From Haloplanus salinus (GTDB lineage Archaea; Halobacteriota; Halobacteria; Halobacteriales; Haloferacaceae): a stretch of DNA of 64,000 bases. This document shows positions 37,129 to 61,700 of the stretch, piece by piece. A program made the translations under genes and the position numbers. Under the pieces are notes generated by a model, which was not told where the DNA came from, ran no database searches, and saw only the letters and a list, made by a program, of their open reading frames with translations. The DNA is taken from assembly GCF_003336245.1 (NCBI RefSeq), contig NZ_QPHM01000001.1, positions 1,674,001-1,738,000 of the forward strand. The letters are read 5' to 3'. How positions within the stretch are numbered: the first letter of the stretch is position 1; every line of letters begins with the position of its first letter.

Positions 37129-38421
37129 ATGGCTACGCTTGCGATCCGCGGCGGGCGCATCCTCCGCTCGGATATGACCGTCACCGAGGCGGACGTGCTG
37201 GTCGACCGCGAGACGGGCGACATCGTCGAACTCGGTGCCGAACTCGCCGGCGACGAGGAACTCGACGCCCACGGCGACTTGGTGATGCCCGGACTGGTGA
37301 ACGCCCACACCCACGTCGCCATGACGCTCCTGCGCGGCCACGCCGACGACAAACCCCTGGACGCGTGGCTCCGGGAGGACGTCTGGCCGGTCGAGGCGGC
37401 GCTCGAACCGGCCGACATCGAGGCCGGCGCGGCGCTGGGTATCCTGGAGATGATCAAGTCGGGGACGACGACCTTCGCCGATATGTACTTCGAAATCGAC
37501 CGGACGGCCGAGGTGGTAGAGCGGGCGGGGTTGCGGGCCGTCCTCGGCCACGGCGCCATCGCGGCGGGGAAGGACGACGTGGCGGCCCGCGCCGACATCG
37601 AGGAGAGCGTCGAGATGGCCCGACGACTCGACGGCGCCGCGGCCGGCCGAATATCGACGGCGGTGATGCCCCATAGCCTCACCACCGTCACGCCCGAGTT
37701 GCTGGAACTGGCGGCGACGGAGGCCCACGACGCGGGCGTCCCCGTCCACTACCACGCCAACGAGACGGTCGACGAGGTCGACCCCATCGTCGAGGAACAC
37801 GGCCAGCGCCCCGTCGAGTGGGCGCGTGACCTCGGCCTCTGCACCGAGGCCGACTTCTTCGCCCACGGCGTCCACCTCGACGACCGGGAGATCGACCTGC
37901 TCGCCCGGACGGGGACGGGCGTCGTCCACTGTCCGGCGTCGAACATGAAGCTCGCCTCGGGGATGGCGCCGGTCCAGCAGCTGCTCGACGCCGGCGTCCC
38001 GGTCGGCCTCGGCACGGACGGCGCCGCCTCGAACAACGACCTCGACCTCTTCGACGAACTGCGCGACGCGGCGATGCTGGGGAAACTCGCCGCCGCCGAC
38101 GCGAGCGCCGTCGCCGCTCCCGACGCCGTGTCGATGGCGACGGCCGGCGGCGCCGACGTACTCGGCCTGAACGCCGGTCGGATCGAGGCCGGCGCCAAGG
38201 CCGACCTCGCCGTGATCGACCTCGACGCGCCGCATCTCACGCCCGAACACGACGTCGTGAGCCACCTCGCCTACGCCGCTCGCGGATCGGACGTGCGCCA
38301 CACCGTCTGTGACGGCACGGTGTTGATGCGGGACCGCGAGGTGCTGACGCTCGACGAGGGGGCGGTGATGGAGCGAGCGGCGGCGCGGGCCGCGGGGTTG
38401 CTGGAGCGGGCGGGGGTCTGA
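37129..38421 (+). CDS. Amidohydrolase: 5'-deoxyadenosine / S-adenosylhomocysteine / MTA deaminase
   Basis: 430 residues from ATG 37129; a TTG two codons earlier is less likely. Metal-dependent deaminase motifs are in order: VNAHTHVAMTLLRG, GILEMIKSGTTTFADMYF, VHYHANET, HGVHL and GLGTDGAASNNDLDL. This is the MtaD/SAH-deaminase subgroup of the amidohydrolases (TatD-like barrel with one zinc). It lies 300 bp upstream of ahcY in the same direction, suggesting that both handle SAM by-products. Confidence 0.85.
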   Translation: MATLAIRGGRILRSDMTVTEADVLVDRETGDIVELGAELAGDEELDAHGDLVMPGLVNAHTHVAMTLLRGHADDKPLDAWLREDVWPVEAALEPADIEAGAALGILEMIKSGTTTFADMYFEIDRTAEVVERAGLRAVLGHGAIAAGKDDVAARADIEESVEMARRLDGAAAGRISTAVMPHSLTTVTPELLELAATEAHDAGVPVHYHANETVDEVDPIVEEHGQRPVEWARDLGLCTEADFFAHGVHLDDREIDLLARTGTGVVHCPASNMKLASGMAPVQQLLDAGVPVGLGTDGAASNNDLDLFDELRDAAMLGKLAAADASAVAAPDAVSMATAGGADVLGLNAGRIEAGAKADLAVIDLDAPHLTPEHDVVSHLAYAARGSDVRHTVCDGTVLMRDREVLTLDEGAVMERAAARAAGLLERAGV

Positions 38422-52351: not shown

Positions 52352-53287
52352 CGCCGGACGCCGCCGGCCCGATGCACGGCCGGCAGCGAGTGCACGACGC
52401 AGTCGCGTGCCCCCGAGCGAAGTCGTAGCCACGACCACCGCGACCGAGAACCCGGCACGACCGCCACACCCGCGCCGTACGATGGCACTCCGGGGCCGAC
52501 AACGACGGCCCTCACTCCCCGCTCCGAACGACGTAGTACGGTAGAAACGGACCAAACGATCCCCCGAGTCGGATCGGATCGCCAACCCGACTCAGTGGCT
52601 ATCGGTTGCGTCAGTCGTGGTTACGTGAGTGCGAGGAGAAAGCCCCGCGCTTCAGGGCGGGGATGAATCCGACACGCTCATGCCACTCGCTCTCATACAT
52701 TGGTCTACCGGAGTTCCCTCGCCGGGACACACCGGCTTCGCCGGTACAGACGCTTTGCGTCCACGTCCCACGGGGTAACAAATCCGACACCAGTCCACGG
52801 CGTAACACCTCAGGTGACGCGAACCGTGGTACCCAGTCGGCTGAATACCCGACCGTGGAGGGGCGAACGGTATTCGCCCCGTCGAAGCGTCTGGCACGTC
52901 CGGGTGGGAAGGCCGCTTTGACACGGCTAAACGCACTGCAAAGCACGCCCTTGGTAATAACTGGGCGGCGACCCCCGACGTGGGACGCGAAAGCGTACTT
53001 CGCCACCGAGGAAACGTGCAACCTTGAACTCCCCTTCGGGGAATCCTCGCCCTTCAGGGCGGGGAGGATGTCAACGGCGTCCTCCACGTCCATGCCGGCC
53101 TCGTCGGGGGATGGACTCCCGTTGCACTCGCGGGTGTCGGCTCCGCCGGTGCACTCGTGCTCCTCTCGACCGACCATCGGCGGCGACCGCTCTCCCCCAT
53201 CGGTGGTCCGGACACTACGGTGCCGTTTCCCCTCCGGATCGTGGCCAAGTCGGCATACGGGACGACCGACCGCGTCGACGGGGCGGT
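52352..53287. other. Gene-free stretch around the IS remnant
   Basis: No convincing gene on either strand; long frames here only read through the element and have no coding character. Besides the two hairpins, nothing else recognised. Confidence 0.4.
52637..53075. mobile_element. IS1341/TnpB-type element ends without tnpB
   Basis: At 52643-52662 a hairpin CCCCGC..TTCAGG..GCGGGG is followed by ATGAATCCGAC. At 53044-53068 TCCTCGCCC-TTCA-GGGCGGGGAGGA is followed by TGTCAAC. I recall both as end structures of haloarchaeal IS200/IS605-IS1341 elements; the second is the right-end hairpin over which TnpB guide RNA is made. The 380 bp between them holds no tnpB or tnpA. It is a MITE-like derivative or a stand-alone guide-RNA remnant. 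Confidence 0.5.
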
Positions 53288-55486
53288 TCAGGTAGCCCCG
53301 ATCCGCGTCTCGATCGACCCCTGTGGGAGACTCAGTACGACGCACGTTCCACGCGGTGCGTTTTCTTCGATCGAGATCTCACCCCCGTACAGCGAGATGG
53401 TCCAGTAGACGATCCACAGTCCGATCCCGGTGCCGTGTTGTAGGGGCGTTTCCTCGCCTCTCTCGATCGTTTCCTGTTCCTGATCCGGGATGCCGGGTCC
53501 GTCGTCGGCGACGACGAGTTCTATCCACTCGCCGGTTCGATCCTCGCTCGGCGGTCTGGTCGTGACCGTAACCTCCGGCGTGGACCGGTCGTTGTGGACG
53601 ATTGCGTTTTCGACGAGCTCCGACAGCGCCGTCTTCAACCGATCGTCCGCCCGTGCGTGGAGGGAATCGGGCGTACTGGCCGTGAGCATCGCACCGGGAT
53701 ACTCCTCGGAAAGCTCGTCGACGACCTCAGTGAGCAGCCCAGTCACGTCACAGGTCGTCTGGGCCGCTGCTTCGTTACCGAACAGGGAGCGCACCGTCGC
53801 GCTCTTATCACCCAAACTCGCCAGTGCCGCCGATCGATCTTCGATCGCGTTCACGTGCGCCTGGAGTTCGTCGCCGTCCAGCGCCTTCCGGAGCATCGCC
53901 GCACGGCCTTCGATTACGTTTACCGCGTTCCGGAGGTTGTGGCGCAGCACACGATTGAGGACCTCGAGTTGCTGTTCGCGCAACCGGCGGTTCGTCACGT
54001 CGGCTTCGATCGTGACGAAGTGCGTGAGCGCTCCCTCGTCGTTCGCTATGGGCGAAATCGTCTGATCGACGTGGTACAACTCCCCATTTTTGCGGCGATT
54101 GACGAGGTGGGCATCCCACTGGTCGCCCCCGAGGACCGTCCGCCACAGCCGATCGTAGAACTCGTCGTCCTGTTTGCCTGACTTGAGAAGACGGGGCGTT
54201 CGACCGACGGCTTCCTCACGAGTGTAGCCGGACCTGGCCTCGAACTTCGGGTTCACGTACTCGATGCTGCCGTCGCTGTCGGTGATGAAGACCGACTGAC
54301 CCGCGTTCTCGACGGCTTTTTTGAACAGCTGTAAGTCCATTTCGCGCTCCTTGCGTTCGGTGATGTCCTCCTGAAATCCGACGTAGTTGGTTACGGTTCC
54401 GGCCCGGTCTCTCACCGGGGCGATACTGACACGATCCCAGAACTGGCTCCCGTCCTTGCGGTAGTTGCGAAGTTCCACCGAGACCGGCTCGGCTCTATCG
54501 ATCGCCCGCCGCATCTCGGCGACGGGCCGCTCCCGCGTCGCCTCTCCCTGCAGGAACCGGCAGTTGCGACCGATCGCTTCCTCCTTGGAGTATCCCGTTA
54601 GCGCCTCGAATCCCTCGTTCACGTAGATCATCGGGTTGTCCTCCCGGTCGGGATCGGTAATCGTGATTCCGACGGGGGCTTCGTCCATCGCCCGGGACTT
54701 CAGTTCGAGCTCCCGTGCGTACGCTTTCCGTTCCGTCACGTCGCGCGCGGAGAGGAGTACCGAGGAATCGTCGAGCGCCGCGGCCGACACCTCCAACTGT
54801 CGCTCGTTGCCCTCCTTCGTCAGACACGCGAGGTCGTCGGTCGACCCCTGACCCGCCTCCCGTACGTCCCGGAGGAAGGATCGAAACCGCTCGCGGTCGT
54901 CGGCGTGGATCGTCTCGGTCGCCGCCAAGGAGAGCAACTCGCCGCGTGAGTATCCCACGAGGGCACACGCAGCCGGATTACATTCGGTGATCTCGTCGCT
55001 GCCTGGGGCAACCACCAAGAGAGCGTCGTTCGTCGACTCGAACAGCCGTTGAAATCGGGTCTGAACGTCCTCGTAGCGCTCGGACAACTCCACCGACTGC
55101 TCCCGTCGGGCCAACAAATTCCCCACCCGACGAAACAGGGTCTTCCGGTCGACGGGTGCCGGCACCACTTCGTCGATAAGCGGTGGGCCGTCGCCGTTCT
55201 GCTCGGACGGCAGTGGGACAGTTCCCCGCGATCCTTCCTTCTGAATCAACAGCACGGGGGTGAACGTCGGGTGGCGGTCGGCCTTGTGCTCTTCCAACGC
55301 GTCTCGATACGTCGGCACCATCCGCTCATCGACGACGTAACAATCGGCAGGGCTGAGAGTCCCGCCGTCGATAACGTCGTACCGCTCGCGGAGGGATCCT
55401 TCGAGGGCGGCCCGGTCGTTATCCCCGTGTATGAAGAGCTGTACCGTGTGTCGCTCACTCGCGTCGTGGCTCGACCGGCCGGTCAT
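53288..55486 (-). CDS. PAS/LOV sensor histidine kinase
   Basis: 732 residues. Residues 13-85 form a degenerate receiver-like domain (VQLFIHGDNDRAALEGSLRERYDVI). PAS 1 is about 142-250. PAS 2 (about 265-375) contains GRNCRFLQG (306-314), the LOV flavin-binding motif with the photoactive cysteine C309, and NYRKDG (341-346). PAS 3 is about 385-500. H-box LNRVLRHNLRNAVNVIEG (H517) and a HATPase domain (ELVENAIVHN, DDGPGIPD, GTGIGLWIV) follow. It probably senses blue light. Its start overlaps the KaiC-like gene stop (ATGA). Confidence 0.85.
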   Translation of the reverse strand: MTGRSSHDASERHTVQLFIHGDNDRAALEGSLRERYDVIDGGTLSPADCYVVDERMVPTYRDALEEHKADRHPTFTPVLLIQKEGSRGTVPLPSEQNGDGPPLIDEVVPAPVDRKTLFRRVGNLLARREQSVELSERYEDVQTRFQRLFESTNDALLVVAPGSDEITECNPAACALVGYSRGELLSLAATETIHADDRERFRSFLRDVREAGQGSTDDLACLTKEGNERQLEVSAAALDDSSVLLSARDVTERKAYARELELKSRAMDEAPVGITITDPDREDNPMIYVNEGFEALTGYSKEEAIGRNCRFLQGEATRERPVAEMRRAIDRAEPVSVELRNYRKDGSQFWDRVSIAPVRDRAGTVTNYVGFQEDITERKEREMDLQLFKKAVENAGQSVFITDSDGSIEYVNPKFEARSGYTREEAVGRTPRLLKSGKQDDEFYDRLWRTVLGGDQWDAHLVNRRKNGELYHVDQTISPIANDEGALTHFVTIEADVTNRRLREQQLEVLNRVLRHNLRNAVNVIEGRAAMLRKALDGDELQAHVNAIEDRSAALASLGDKSATVRSLFGNEAAAQTTCDVTGLLTEVVDELSEEYPGAMLTASTPDSLHARADDRLKTALSELVENAIVHNDRSTPEVTVTTRPPSEDRTGEWIELVVADDGPGIPDQEQETIERGEETPLQHGTGIGLWIVYWTISLYGGEISIEENAPRGTCVVLSLPQGSIETRIGAT

Positions 55487-57000
55487 GATTCATTGGTCGT
55501 CCGGTTGGAGCCGTCCGGAACGCGACGCGTCGAACTCCCCCCCATGATCCCTCGTACGTTGTCGAACGGCCCCTCGATAACGAGTCCCGCGCCGGATTCG
55601 ATGGAGAACCGATGGAACCGACTGTCGAAGTCCCCGAGTCGCTTCTTGACGACCCCGATCGCACGGTCCAACTCGCCGCCGACCTCCACGTACGTGAGAA
55701 ACACGATGTTGTCGGCGATGTAGCTGGTGTTCGTACTCGTGGCTTCCGGGATGCCGGTGAGACGATCCGCTTCGTCCGTGATGATGACTGCGATACCGCG
55801 ATCCTTGAGTACCCGCGTAAGGCCGTGGAGACGTCGAACGAGCCGTCGATCGTCGCCCTGGAGCGAGGTCTGATAGCCCGAGAGCCCGTCGACGAACACC
55901 GCGTCCGGGGCGTGCTCGTCGACCTGATTGAGGACGTGCTGATCGAACTCCTCGGCCGAGCGAACGAGCGGCTCGGTCTCCGTCAGCACCAGTGATCCCT
56001 GCGCCCGCATCTCCGAAATCGGGAGTCCGAGGGCTTCCGAGCGGTGGACGAACTGGTCGATGGACTCTTCGAACAAGTAGCCGAGTGCCGTCCCACCGTC
56101 TTCGACGACGCCGGAGAGGCTCCGTGCCCCGGTGGTCGACTTTCCGATGCCGGTCGGACCGCTGATGAACGAGACGGTTCCGCGTTCGATGCCGCCGCCG
56201 AGGAGACCGTCGAGGGACTCGTGTCCGGTGGGGATGAGCTCCGGATCGAACGTTCGGTCGCCGTGTTTTGGGATGGTCTGTGGGTAGACTTCGATCCCGT
56301 GATCGCGGATCTCGAGTCCGTGGGTACCGTCTACCTGGCCGAGTCCACGGTGTTTCGGGACCGCTATCCGACGCTCGCGCTCGTCGAGATACAGATCGAC
56401 GACGCCGTCACTGAGCGACTCGAAGTCGTCGTGTGTGGTCCGCGATGCACCGTTTCTGTTGTGCGTTCGCGTAGCAACTGTCGTCACCTGTCGGTCCCGG
56501 AGAAATCGGATGAGCGACTGCAGTCGCTTCCGGTACTGGTACTCGTCCCGTTCCACGTACTGGAGCTGTGTGATCGGATCGACGAGAATCCGGCTCGGGT
56601 CGACGTCCTCGATCACCTGCTTGATATCTTGCGTAAACCGCTCTGATTCGACTTCGGTCGCCTCGACCAGGTTGTACGACCTGTCCTCGGCGAAGAAGTC
56701 CGTCCCGGGACCGATGTCGAGAAACTCGGCGTCCTGGATGTCGATTCCCAACCGTGCGGCGTTGACGAGAATGTCGTCTCTCGATTCCTCGCCGTGGATG
56801 TAGACGACCGTCTCCTCCCTATCGAGTCCTGCTCGCAGGAAGTGCTGGCCAAGCAGTGACTTCCCCGTCCCGGAGACGCCCTGCACGAGATACGTCCGAC
56901 CGCGAACGTACCCACCGTTGAGCAGCTCGTCCAACTCGGGGATGCCGGACGCGACCAGTTCGATTTCCTCGGTCGCCGTCCCGTTGGAGTAGTTAGGCAT
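55483..57000 (-). CDS. KaiC-like double RecA-type ATPase
   Basis: 505 residues in two RecA/KaiC modules. Module 1: Walker A GVSGTGKS (41-48) and the catalytic Glu pair HGEESRDD (71-72). Module 2: Walker A GPTGIGKS (281-288), Glu pair FEESIDQF (311-312), and a final TSYIADNIVFLTYVEVGGELDRAIGVVKKR. In cyanobacterial KaiC the equivalent of TSY (425-427) carries the phosphorylated Ser-Thr. Here Ser is kept and the Thr is Tyr. KaiA and KaiB are not nearby. It is upstream of, and translationally coupled to, the LOV kinase. Confidence 0.85.
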   Translation of the reverse strand: MPNYSNGTATEEIELVASGIPELDELLNGGYVRGRTYLVQGVSGTGKSLLGQHFLRAGLDREETVVYIHGEESRDDILVNAARLGIDIQDAEFLDIGPGTDFFAEDRSYNLVEATEVESERFTQDIKQVIEDVDPSRILVDPITQLQYVERDEYQYRKRLQSLIRFLRDRQVTTVATRTHNRNGASRTTHDDFESLSDGVVDLYLDERERRIAVPKHRGLGQVDGTHGLEIRDHGIEVYPQTIPKHGDRTFDPELIPTGHESLDGLLGGGIERGTVSFISGPTGIGKSTTGARSLSGVVEDGGTALGYLFEESIDQFVHRSEALGLPISEMRAQGSLVLTETEPLVRSAEEFDQHVLNQVDEHAPDAVFVDGLSGYQTSLQGDDRRLVRRLHGLTRVLKDRGIAVIITDEADRLTGIPEATSTNTSYIADNIVFLTYVEVGGELDRAIGVVKKRLGDFDSRFHRFSIESGAGLVIEGPFDNVRGIMGGSSTRRVPDGSNRTTNES

Positions 57001-57080: not shown

Positions 57081-57428
57081 CTAGCGTGCGGTCTCGACGC
57101 CGGTACTCTCGAAGCGTGCGCCGCACCGCGCGCCGTCGACGACGCAGACGTCCCAGCCGTGCGCCTCGACGGCCTGCTCTACGATCCGCAGGCCAAACCC
57201 AGTTCCCTGATCCGTGGTCGAATGGCCGGCTTCGAACACCCCGTCCCGGTCGCTCCCGGCCACCGCCTTCCGCTCACGCGCCAGCGCCAGCAGGTCGTCG
57301 ACGAGTGCTTGACTCCGGTCAATCGCCTCGTCTACCCGGGTCAAATGGTCGCCGCCGACACACTCTCGCTGACTCGATCGACGTTCTCCTCCCACCTGCG
57401 AAACGCGCAGCAAACGCTTTTCGAACAA
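57081..57428 (-). pseudogene. Histidine-kinase fragment with internal deletion
   Basis: The frame reads a phosphoacceptor-helix remnant (TRVDEAIDRSQALVDDLLALARE) directly joined to the HATPase G2-box end (FEAGHSTTDQGTGFGLRIVEQAVEAHGWDV). The N-box, F-box and most of the ATPase are missing. Its homologue remnant is the 2.1-2.5 kb pseudogene. It may be a leftover of the kinase originally paired with this locus. Confidence 0.6.
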
Positions 57429-59215: not shown

Positions 59216-61700
59216 TCAGCGGTCTGAAAACGTGATAGTCGCGGTCGTTCCAGCGCCAGTATCGAACGTCAGCGCAGCCTCCGAGTACCGGACCACGCGG
59301 TCGACTATCCACATCCCTGCTCCGCTCCCGTGTTCTAGCGACGACTCGGCGTGTTCGTCGATCACGTCGAGTTCGCACGGATCGATCCCAGGGCCGTTGT
59401 CGCTGACTCGAACGCGTATACTCTCATCGTTCTGCTGGACTGAGACCTCGACCCGGGGGGCATCGCTATCGTTGTGCTCGAACCCATTCCGAATGAGGTG
59501 AGCAAAGGCGGTCTGGAGTTCTCGGTGCGCCGTCACGGTCGGGACGTCACCGATGTCGACTTCGAGTTCCCCATCCGGAAACTCCGCCCCCACGTTCCTG
59601 ACAGCGGACTGGATTGCCGACTCCAAGTCGACGGGGGTGATGTCACTCCGCCTGTTCACAATCGTTCGCATCTCTCGAGCGTGTCGGGACGTCTTTTCGA
59701 CCGCGCGACAGCTCTCGAGTGCGCGCCGCGCGTATTCCCGTATCGGCTCGTCCGCTGTGGACTCTATCTGCGAAGCGTATCCCATGATCGTCGTGAGCTC
59801 GTTCCGGACGTTGTGCCTGAGGATCCGCGCGATGACCTGATTGAGGAGGTCACGGTCCCGACGGCTGTCGATCACTTCCGCGACTACCGCAAGATTGGTG
59901 CCGAGAGATTCGAGTATCTCGGCGTCCAAGTCGCTGAAACTCTCCGCATGAGTCGACCCGGCGATCAACACCCCGAAGTCACCGATGGGAACGATCACCT
60001 CCTCTTCGATCGGCGTCTCGTCGTTGTAGGCGTCGGGATGTGAAGCGACGTTGCTCGTGACAAGCGTCGACTTGCTTTCGAACGACCGCCACGCGAGGCT
60101 GTCGTCGCCCGAAAACGATGGTAAGTCCCCGAACAGCCGGTCGGATCGATCCGTGCCCGCGACCGGTTCGAGCTGCTGTCGTGCAGGCTGGGTTTTCCAG
60201 ATGCCCATCAGGGGCATATTCAGCGCCTCCGGGAGCTCAGCGAGAGCAGCTTCGACCATGTCCTCGTAAGAGTGCTTTTGAAGCGCACTACGAGCCACCT
60301 CCTGGGTCTTTTTGAGGCCCCTCTCGTTCAGCTTGCGATCAAGCCCAATCGCCGTGAGCTGGCCTAACACCCGCAGAAAGTACACGTCCTCGTCTTTGAA
60401 ACCGTTCGGCTTGAGCGCAGAGGTGACGACGACCCCGTGCTTCCTGACTGGAACGACGACTGCGCTTCCCACCGGCGTCTCTTCGTTCGGGAGACGGCCG
60501 TCGAACGCGTCGGTATCGTCGATGCGAATCGGCTCGCCTCGTCGGTACGCGTCCCACACCACCGAGTCCCTGTCGGTGTACGTGATCGAACTCCACACTC
60601 AACCGCTCTCTGACTGCGGCAGTCGTAACGACTGGTTCGAGCGCTCCTGAACCGCGATCGTACAGGTGGACACCGACGTTCGAATGCCCGAGCACCGACT
60701 CGACGGTCCGAACGGCCGTTCGGCAGATTTGATCACGGGAGTCCCCCGTGAGGACGTCCTGTGCCGCGGCGTACAGCTTCTGAAGCGTCAGCTCACGTTC
60801 TCGCTGATCAGTGATGTCGGCATACACGCCGAAGTACTCGGTTCGGTGAGCCGCGCCGACCGGGACGGCGGTAAACAGGAAGTACCCGATTCCGTCGGGA
60901 GTCTCACGCCGTACCTCCCGTTGGAATGGCTCTCCCGCCTCGAGAGTCTGCGTAAGCGCGTCTGTCTCCACCGGTTGGTCGTCGGGGGTAATCAACTCGT
61001 TGAGGTCACGGCCCCGGATGGACTCGTCGGAGTATCCGAACGTCGATTCGAACGCGTCGTTGGCGCGGTCGAGTCGCTCGGTCCCGTCGGCCTCAATGAC
61101 GACTTCGACGGTCGGGTCGGCGGTAGCGGCGAAGATGGCTTCGAAGCGGTCGCGCTGTCTGCGGAGCGAGCGTTCCCGACGGTTTGCCCGGCAAGCCTGT
61201 CCCAACCTATCGTTCAACGGCTCCAACGCCGAAACGGTCTTGATGTCGAGCGACCCGCCCCGCTTACAAAGCACCAAGACGCCGAACCCCGGCAGATCAA
61301 ACAGATAGTACGTGCCAGCACCCTCGACTGTTCCAGAAGCCGGGAGTGCGTCGGCGACTCCGCGAGCCGGCGTCGCGGCCGACGGTTCGGTCGTGGACCT
61401 GTCCGTGCGGCCGGGCCGCCCGGAGGCACTGTGACCGGGATCGGTTGCGATGTCCACGAGGCGATCCCGCGCGGCGCAGAACAGCTCGTTTCGGGTCGGG
61501 TTCGCAGGGATCGACGCCACGAGCGTCGGCTTGGCCCCGTCGGCGACCCCAGCGGTTTCGAACACGCCACCGGCAGAGCAGTTCAGCTTCTTGAGGTAGG
61601 CCGAGAGCGCCCGATCAGCGGTCTCTGCGAGCGTCTCGCCGGTTTCGATCCCGAGCGAAATCTCGTAGAGCGTCTGGACGCGACGCTGCCGAGACGTCAT
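59216..61700 (-). pseudogene. PAS/GAF histidine kinase, frameshifted (split into two frames)
   Basis: The first frame (61700 to about 60600) reads a GAF-like N-terminus, a PAS domain (FEAIFAATADPTVEVVIEAD...) and the first part of a GAF domain ending VRERLSVEFDH. The second (about 60600 to 59216) continues the same GAF domain (SVVWDAYRRGEPIRIDD), another GAF, H-box RILRHNVRNELTTIMGYASQIE and a HATPase (NGFEHN, DNGPGI, GSGAGMWIV). One extra nucleotide (or two missing) near 60600 joins them. It is an authentic frameshift or a sequencing error. Its start overlaps the FIST gene stop by 4 bp. Confidence 0.75.

Follow-up and report, generated by a model that had tools for sequence, protein, structure and literature searches.

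How the abundant KaiC proteins of archaea relay signals in the absence of their cyanobacterial partners is an open question. In cyanobacteria, KaiC acts with SasA, CikA and KaiA, a set that includes partner kinases and in which CikA and KaiA contain pseudo-receivers. The CikA pseudo-receiver binds KaiB (PMC12632262), and KaiA has been reported only from cyanobacteria (PMC5520375). For archaea, Makarova 2017 (as cited in PMC5847659) linked KaiC proteins to signalling domains and proposed that KaiC-like ATPases are signalling hubs, and the authors of a 2025 review were aware of no published function for any archaeal pseudo-receiver (PMC12632262). In Haloferax volcanii, cirC, which encodes a KaiC homologue of two-domain size, adjoins fixL, which encodes a PAS-type histidine kinase (Maniscalco 2014, PMC3941300). 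Here we describe a KaiC-like gene that overlaps a kinase gene in a stretch of 64,000 nucleotides from Haloplanus salinus (contig NZ_QPHM01000001.1, positions 1,674,001 to 1,738,000), hereafter the window, a segment of a haloarchaeal genome of 3.55 Mb. The two genes and the N-terminal domain of the kinase are as follows:

55483..57000, minus strand: KaiC-like two-domain ATPase of 505 amino acids (two PF06745 domains; full-length alignment with solved KaiC)
53288..55486, minus strand: psREC-PAS-LOV-PAS histidine kinase of 732 amino acids (open reading frame, domain matches)
55483..55486, minus strand: ATGA in which the KaiC stop codon (TGA, 55483-55485) overlaps the start codon of the kinase (ATG, 55484-55486)
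55082..55444, minus strand: N-terminal pseudo-receiver, psREC, the invariant domain among the partners of KaiC (profile, AF2/Foldseek fold, occurrence in partners)

The overlap of a KaiC-like gene with a LOV kinase gene had been noted in a sequence-only reading of the window, and this observation was confirmed: both frames are open on the minus strand and share the ATGA. The same reading singled out the exact pairing as noteworthy; KaiC beside a PAS kinase is already known from cirC-fixL, and KaiC hubs were proposed in Makarova 2017. Its interpretation of the pair as a KaiC-LOV switch unit was partly supported, in that the pairing is conserved and the LOV domain retains nearly all flavin and adduct residues, but the conserved unit is KaiC plus a psREC protein, with LOV found in only some of the partners. 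It had overlooked the pseudo-receiver, an Asp in the LOV domain (D351), a second pair of KaiC and LOV-kinase genes in the same genome, and a degraded kinase gene upstream.

The locus differs from each of the described systems. The passages of PMC3941300 available to us contain no analysis of LOV, psREC or a conserved module. Unlike its cyanobacterial counterparts, the psREC of the window is N-terminal and is encoded beside KaiC in a genome without KaiB, and its likeness to CikA is at the level of fold only. The NCRFLQ motif, the LOV fold and the kinase output recall LOV histidine kinases, YtvA and the archaeal ALovD-1 (PMC12202551), but in the window the LOV domain lies between two PAS domains and behind psREC, is coupled to KaiC, and reads FWD rather than FWN. 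Bacterial KaiC operons such as that of Bradyrhizobium (L238) also place a kinase directly after KaiC, but that kinase is without an N-terminal psREC and has an ordinary C-terminal receiver. Our literature search turned up no paper that brings KaiC and LOV together in haloarchaea and recognised none on an archaeal KaiC-linked pseudo-receiver; Makarova 2017 lay outside its coverage.

Linkage of the pseudo-receiver to one type of KaiC

Conservation of the adjacency, a check called for in the sequence-only reading, was examined in 102 loci with 105 two-domain KaiC entries from the haloarchaeal order of the window. A histidine kinase gene lay directly downstream on the same strand of 81 of the 105 KaiC genes, and 8 others had one divergently upstream, so the arrangement is not unique to this strain. 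The downstream genes were closely spaced, 32 of the 81 pairs overlapping or abutting and 61 having gaps of 30 nt or less. Chance and a strain quirk were both ruled out as explanations; with about 50 HATPase_c matches in the 3.5-Mb host genome, chance would not place a kinase gene downstream of KaiC so often.

In its N-terminal stretch of ~125 residues the kinase had no Pfam match, nor did any of 53 psREC representatives match a receiver model. A profile built from these representatives nevertheless retrieved receiver domains from the PDB, with PleD as the best match. The AF2 model of psREC showed a receiver-like fold with a pLDDT of 91, and Foldseek with this model returned receivers at probabilities near 1 and TM scores of about 0.55-0.7, the CikA pseudo-receiver ranking 37th (TM 0.54). 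On these models psREC is predicted to have the receiver fold. The residues listed ahead of the conserved Pro did not include the Lys expected of a receiver, and the Thr/Ser of strand 4 was mostly absent; Asp was kept at the phospho position in 48 of the 53 representatives. Judged by these residues, psREC is classed as a pseudo-receiver that is missing one or more catalytic residues. For a bacterial psREC modelled from a single sequence, AF2 gave a pLDDT of 44, too low to be informative.

The psREC profile matched 80 of the 81 downstream and all 8 divergent kinases and was found at 95 of the 102 KaiC loci, counts for the partner kinases that are partly circular because the profile was built from those proteins. 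When the psREC of the window was used as a single-sequence query, nearly all partner kinases were found. At two loci without psREC (L113 and L118), and at a named Haladaptatus locus (L220), a stand-alone receiver-like protein is encoded directly after KaiC. A further candidate for psREC beside KaiC (L210) was discarded as an ordinary receiver with MetOD1.

The linkage of psREC to KaiC was specific. Among 36 whole genomes, psREC was present in 18 of 18 with KaiC and in 3 of 18 without it (Fisher p=3e-7, uncorrected for relatedness), and 27 of the 38 psREC loci in these genomes were beside an intact KaiC gene and 5 beside KaiC remnants. In a search across the phylum, psREC was almost restricted to haloarchaea; a few matches came from one other family (f15), where 3 of 6 adjoin a KaiC-like gene. 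We also found psREC fused to GAF-BAT-HTH_10 proteins that adjoin KaiC. Proteins with psREC adjoin truncated or broken KaiC genes at L163, L164, L165, L167 and L173, which suggests repeated decay of KaiC with the psREC partner left behind.

Bacterial and named loci, at least 21 with patchy coverage of the named ones, were fetched by KaiC similarity alone and lie outside the set from which the profile was built. Among the matches listed, this type of KaiC is accompanied by psREC kinases in Hyella, Lyngbya and one Anaerolineae bacterium, and by psREC with GGDEF-EAL in a Methylococcaceae bacterium and Halothiobacillus. The second, more distant KaiC of the two cyanobacteria (28-30% identity), presumably the clock KaiC, had no psREC match on its contig. 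At L227 and L234 the bacterial KaiC gene adjoins one for a psREC-GGDEF-EAL protein, a possible link of KaiC to cyclic di-GMP.

Co-divergence was assessed from uncorrected distances for 87 KaiC-partner pairs. KaiC distance correlated with psREC distance at r=0.79 (partial 0.71) and with kinase-core distance at r=0.51 (partial 0.19). Linkage alone cannot account for this contrast, because psREC and the core share one polypeptide. Within the clade of the window, identity of the kinase core falls to 55-64% in some members, compared with 68-85% for the other kinase domains, as would be expected if kinase cores had been exchanged.

The KaiC-like ATPase and the LOV domain of its partner

The motifs of the KaiC-like protein and the remaining domains of the kinase are as follows:

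56857..56880, minus strand: CI Walker A motif GVSGTGKS, residues 41-48 (sequence; P-loop Lys kept in relatives)
56137..56160, minus strand: CII Walker A motif GPTGIGKS, residues 281-288 (sequence; Lys in 104 of 104)
55720..55725, minus strand: S426-Y427, corresponding to KaiC phospho-sites S431/T432 with Thr replaced by Tyr (alignment with solved KaiC and relatives)
54722..55072, minus strand: first PAS domain of the kinase, about residues 139-255 (domain match)
54329..54703, minus strand: LOV domain, residues 262-386, with Cys309 for the adduct and Asp351 in place of the second flavin Asn (YtvA similarity, residue check)
53972..54334, minus strand: third PAS domain, about residues 385-505 (domain match)
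53312..53971, minus strand: kinase core with H-box RHNLRN and HATPase_c (domain match, sequence)

The 505-residue ATPase has the two-domain organisation of the KaiC family, with two RecA-like domains (two PF06745 matches, E=3.6e-65). Each domain keeps its Walker A motif and its Glu pair (E71/E72 and E311/E312), as the sequence-only reading had stated. Across 104 aligned relatives the P-loop Lys of CI was conserved in 103, with one gap, and that of CII in all 104, as was the second Glu of each pair. The S431-equivalent site was Ser in 102 of 104, and the T432 site was Tyr in 84 of 104, so the dual phospho-site of KaiC is present here only in its Ser. Scores against the clock-KaiC models TIGR02655 (160.7 versus 546 bits) and PRK09302 (278.8 versus 408 bits) fell below the curated cut-offs. 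The absence of KaiB from the neighbourhood, also noted earlier, extends to the whole genome, which contains no PF07689 match; KaiA was not searched for. Membership in a KaiABC clock was ruled out by the sub-cut-off scores, the lack of KaiB and the Tyr at the T432 site.

The partner carries three PAS stretches and a HATPase_c domain (PF02518, 70.5 bits), which together with RHNLRN identifies it as a histidine kinase; its HisKA match was below the cut-off. The middle PAS domain matched YtvA LOV structures at E=1.7e-34, the score against the YtvA family model NF052652 being below the cut-off (216.4 versus 250 bits). It has the motif GRNCRFLQG with the adduct cysteine, in agreement with the earlier reading, and the Cys, Arg, both Gln and first Asn of the LOV residue set are present. 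The second flavin-contacting position in LOV domains is usually Asn (FWN); here it is Asp (D351).

A canonical LOV domain was found in 14 of the 81 downstream partner kinases and 7 of the 8 divergent ones, and the KaiC tree calls for about six gains or losses of it. Among close relatives of the window, dN/dS for LOV is 0.08-0.20, and LOV usually shows the strongest constraint of all the kinase domains. The host genome encodes 6 LOV domains, 2 of them in KaiC-linked kinases. We rejected LOV as the defining feature of the partner because the majority of partner kinases carry none; LOV is also common elsewhere in the genome. From this distribution, LOV is best described as an exchangeable plug-in input, one of several add-ons. 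Light sensing by the LOV domain of the window is plausible, given the photocycle demonstrated for a haloarchaeal LOV domain at salt concentrations up to 3 M (PMC12202551). The genome encodes a second KaiC with two domains (L012, G000:C1:2411-2414 kb), accompanied by a psREC-LOV kinase gene in divergent orientation; the LOV domain of that kinase has Glu where the second flavin Asn would be.

A candidate signalling module and its alternatives

We consider it rather probable that the window pair represents one instance of a KaiC-psREC signalling module that is conserved, with psREC as the KaiC-facing domain and LOV as the light input. The KaiC-like ATPase/autokinase, hexameric by homology, would be encoded with a dedicated partner kinase, and psREC would dock on KaiC. 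It could sense the bound nucleotide of KaiC or its phosphorylation, the latter at the conserved Ser426, and relay this state to the kinase core; in the other direction, the kinase could set the state of KaiC via psREC. Exchangeable input domains would occupy the region from psREC to the core. In versions with LOV, blue light would lead to a flavin-cysteine adduct and a shifted kinase output, provided that the domain binds flavin and responds to light, and the kinase would integrate light with KaiC state and pass its output to an unlinked response regulator. Being found almost only beside one KaiC type, psREC is a concrete candidate for the missing KaiC interface, and the LOV versions would give a light switch for perturbing a KaiC-linked kinase. 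The chances are about even that the loci represent a broader KaiC system, distinct from KaiABC and common to archaea and bacteria, in which one KaiC lineage uses psREC as an adaptor with swappable outputs (histidine kinase, BAT-HTH_10 protein or GGDEF-EAL) and inputs (PAS, GAF or LOV), and has repeatedly acquired light input.

Several observations weigh against this module. Six of the 38 psREC loci were without KaiC nearby, no KaiC-psREC fusion was seen at the KaiC loci examined, and no response regulator was recognised beside the KaiC-kinase pair of the window. Linkage, rate differences and the use of uncorrected distances may contribute to the co-divergence, linkage being equal for the core. 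The LOV domains of the window and its two nearest relatives have FWD instead of FWN, and the LOV cysteine is replaced in four related domains (L067, L070, L137 and L143).

The lone psREC kinases and the lack of fusions would fit a different account, in which KaiC and the kinase are merely co-transcribed for the same pathway or condition without contact, and psREC serves its own kinase. Intramolecular control by pseudo-receivers is documented for CikA and for ShkA, where the domain holds back its own core (PMC12632262). Such an arrangement would not explain why psREC stays beside KaiC in BAT-HTH_10 or GGDEF-EAL proteins that have no kinase core, nor why the divergence of psREC follows that of KaiC and not that of the kinase core, and we regard this account as unlikely, though a serious competitor to the KaiC-psREC module.

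The FWD motif and the replaced cysteines also bear on whether the LOV domain of the window is a working photoreceptor or instead a flavin redox sensor or a decayed copy. Cysteine-less LOV domains can signal via flavin reduction, according to the part of PMC4682037 available to us. We think a redox sensor or a decayed copy improbable in the window, where the domain retains the Cys, the Arg, the two Gln and the first Asn and is under strong purifying selection within its clade, and the photocycle of the haloarchaeal domain at high salt (PMC12202551) likewise argues for light sensing.

A larger operon, MCP-CheW-HK1-KaiC-LOV kinase-HK (HK, histidine kinase; HK1, the upstream one), is carried on plasmids of Haloarcula, Halorientalis and Haloplanus, among them the 200,002-base plasmid NZ_CP098520.1 of Haloplanus sp. 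HW8-1 (KaiC match at 38392). The block is probably mobile, because plasmids of three genera carry it with KaiC proteins 86-88% identical to that of the window. Several Haloplanus chromosomes retain most of it, including MCP, and other genomes have KaiC and the kinase alone, with L258-L260 showing the block reduced to that pair. The window has lost MCP, CheW and the last kinase, and of HK1, intact in related genomes at about 600-900 amino acids, it retains a remnant:

57081..57428, minus strand: HK1 remnant, reduced to pieces that match residues 706-745 and 821-878 of an intact 880-residue relative

By this comparison, the window copy is a reduced form of the larger operon. An alternative is that the pair is a branch of taxis signalling, with the ancestral operon tuning swimming to light and the window holding its decayed remainder, as MCP and CheW ahead of the pair on the plasmids, MCP in the chromosomes and the HK1 remnant might suggest. 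We think this improbable, since most KaiC-psREC loci are without MCP and CheW in the stretches examined, L258-L260 have only KaiC and the kinase, and the two genes of the window are intact although the taxis genes are gone.

An archaeal circadian clock with KaiC as oscillator and LOV as entrainment input, for which one could cite the light-dependent diurnal expression of the H. volcanii cir genes (PMC3941300) and the kinase activity shown for two archaeal KaiC proteins (PMC5520375), is very improbable given the lack of KaiB, clock-model scores far below the cut-offs, Tyr at the T432 site, and the absence of a psREC neighbour from the more distant cyanobacterial KaiC.

Neighbouring genes

On a plasmid of Haloarcula sp. 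GH36 (L253, 7469-9229), a protoglobin-MCP gene is divergent to the MCP-CheW-KaiC operon, an arrangement also seen at L254 and L261; this neighbour hints at oxygen as an input besides light. Within the window, positions 52908-53087 on the plus strand gave sub-threshold matches to the HgcC and sot0042 RNAs, which are similar to the 3' termini of IS200/IS605 (TnpB) elements. The segment is probably an element remnant, because no TnpB gene was noticed beside the RNA matches. On the minus strand at 59216-61700, open reading frames for a PAS protein (60339-61700) and a GAF-HATPase protein (59216-60598) overlap in different frames, as if a frameshift had broken a single histidine kinase gene in two.

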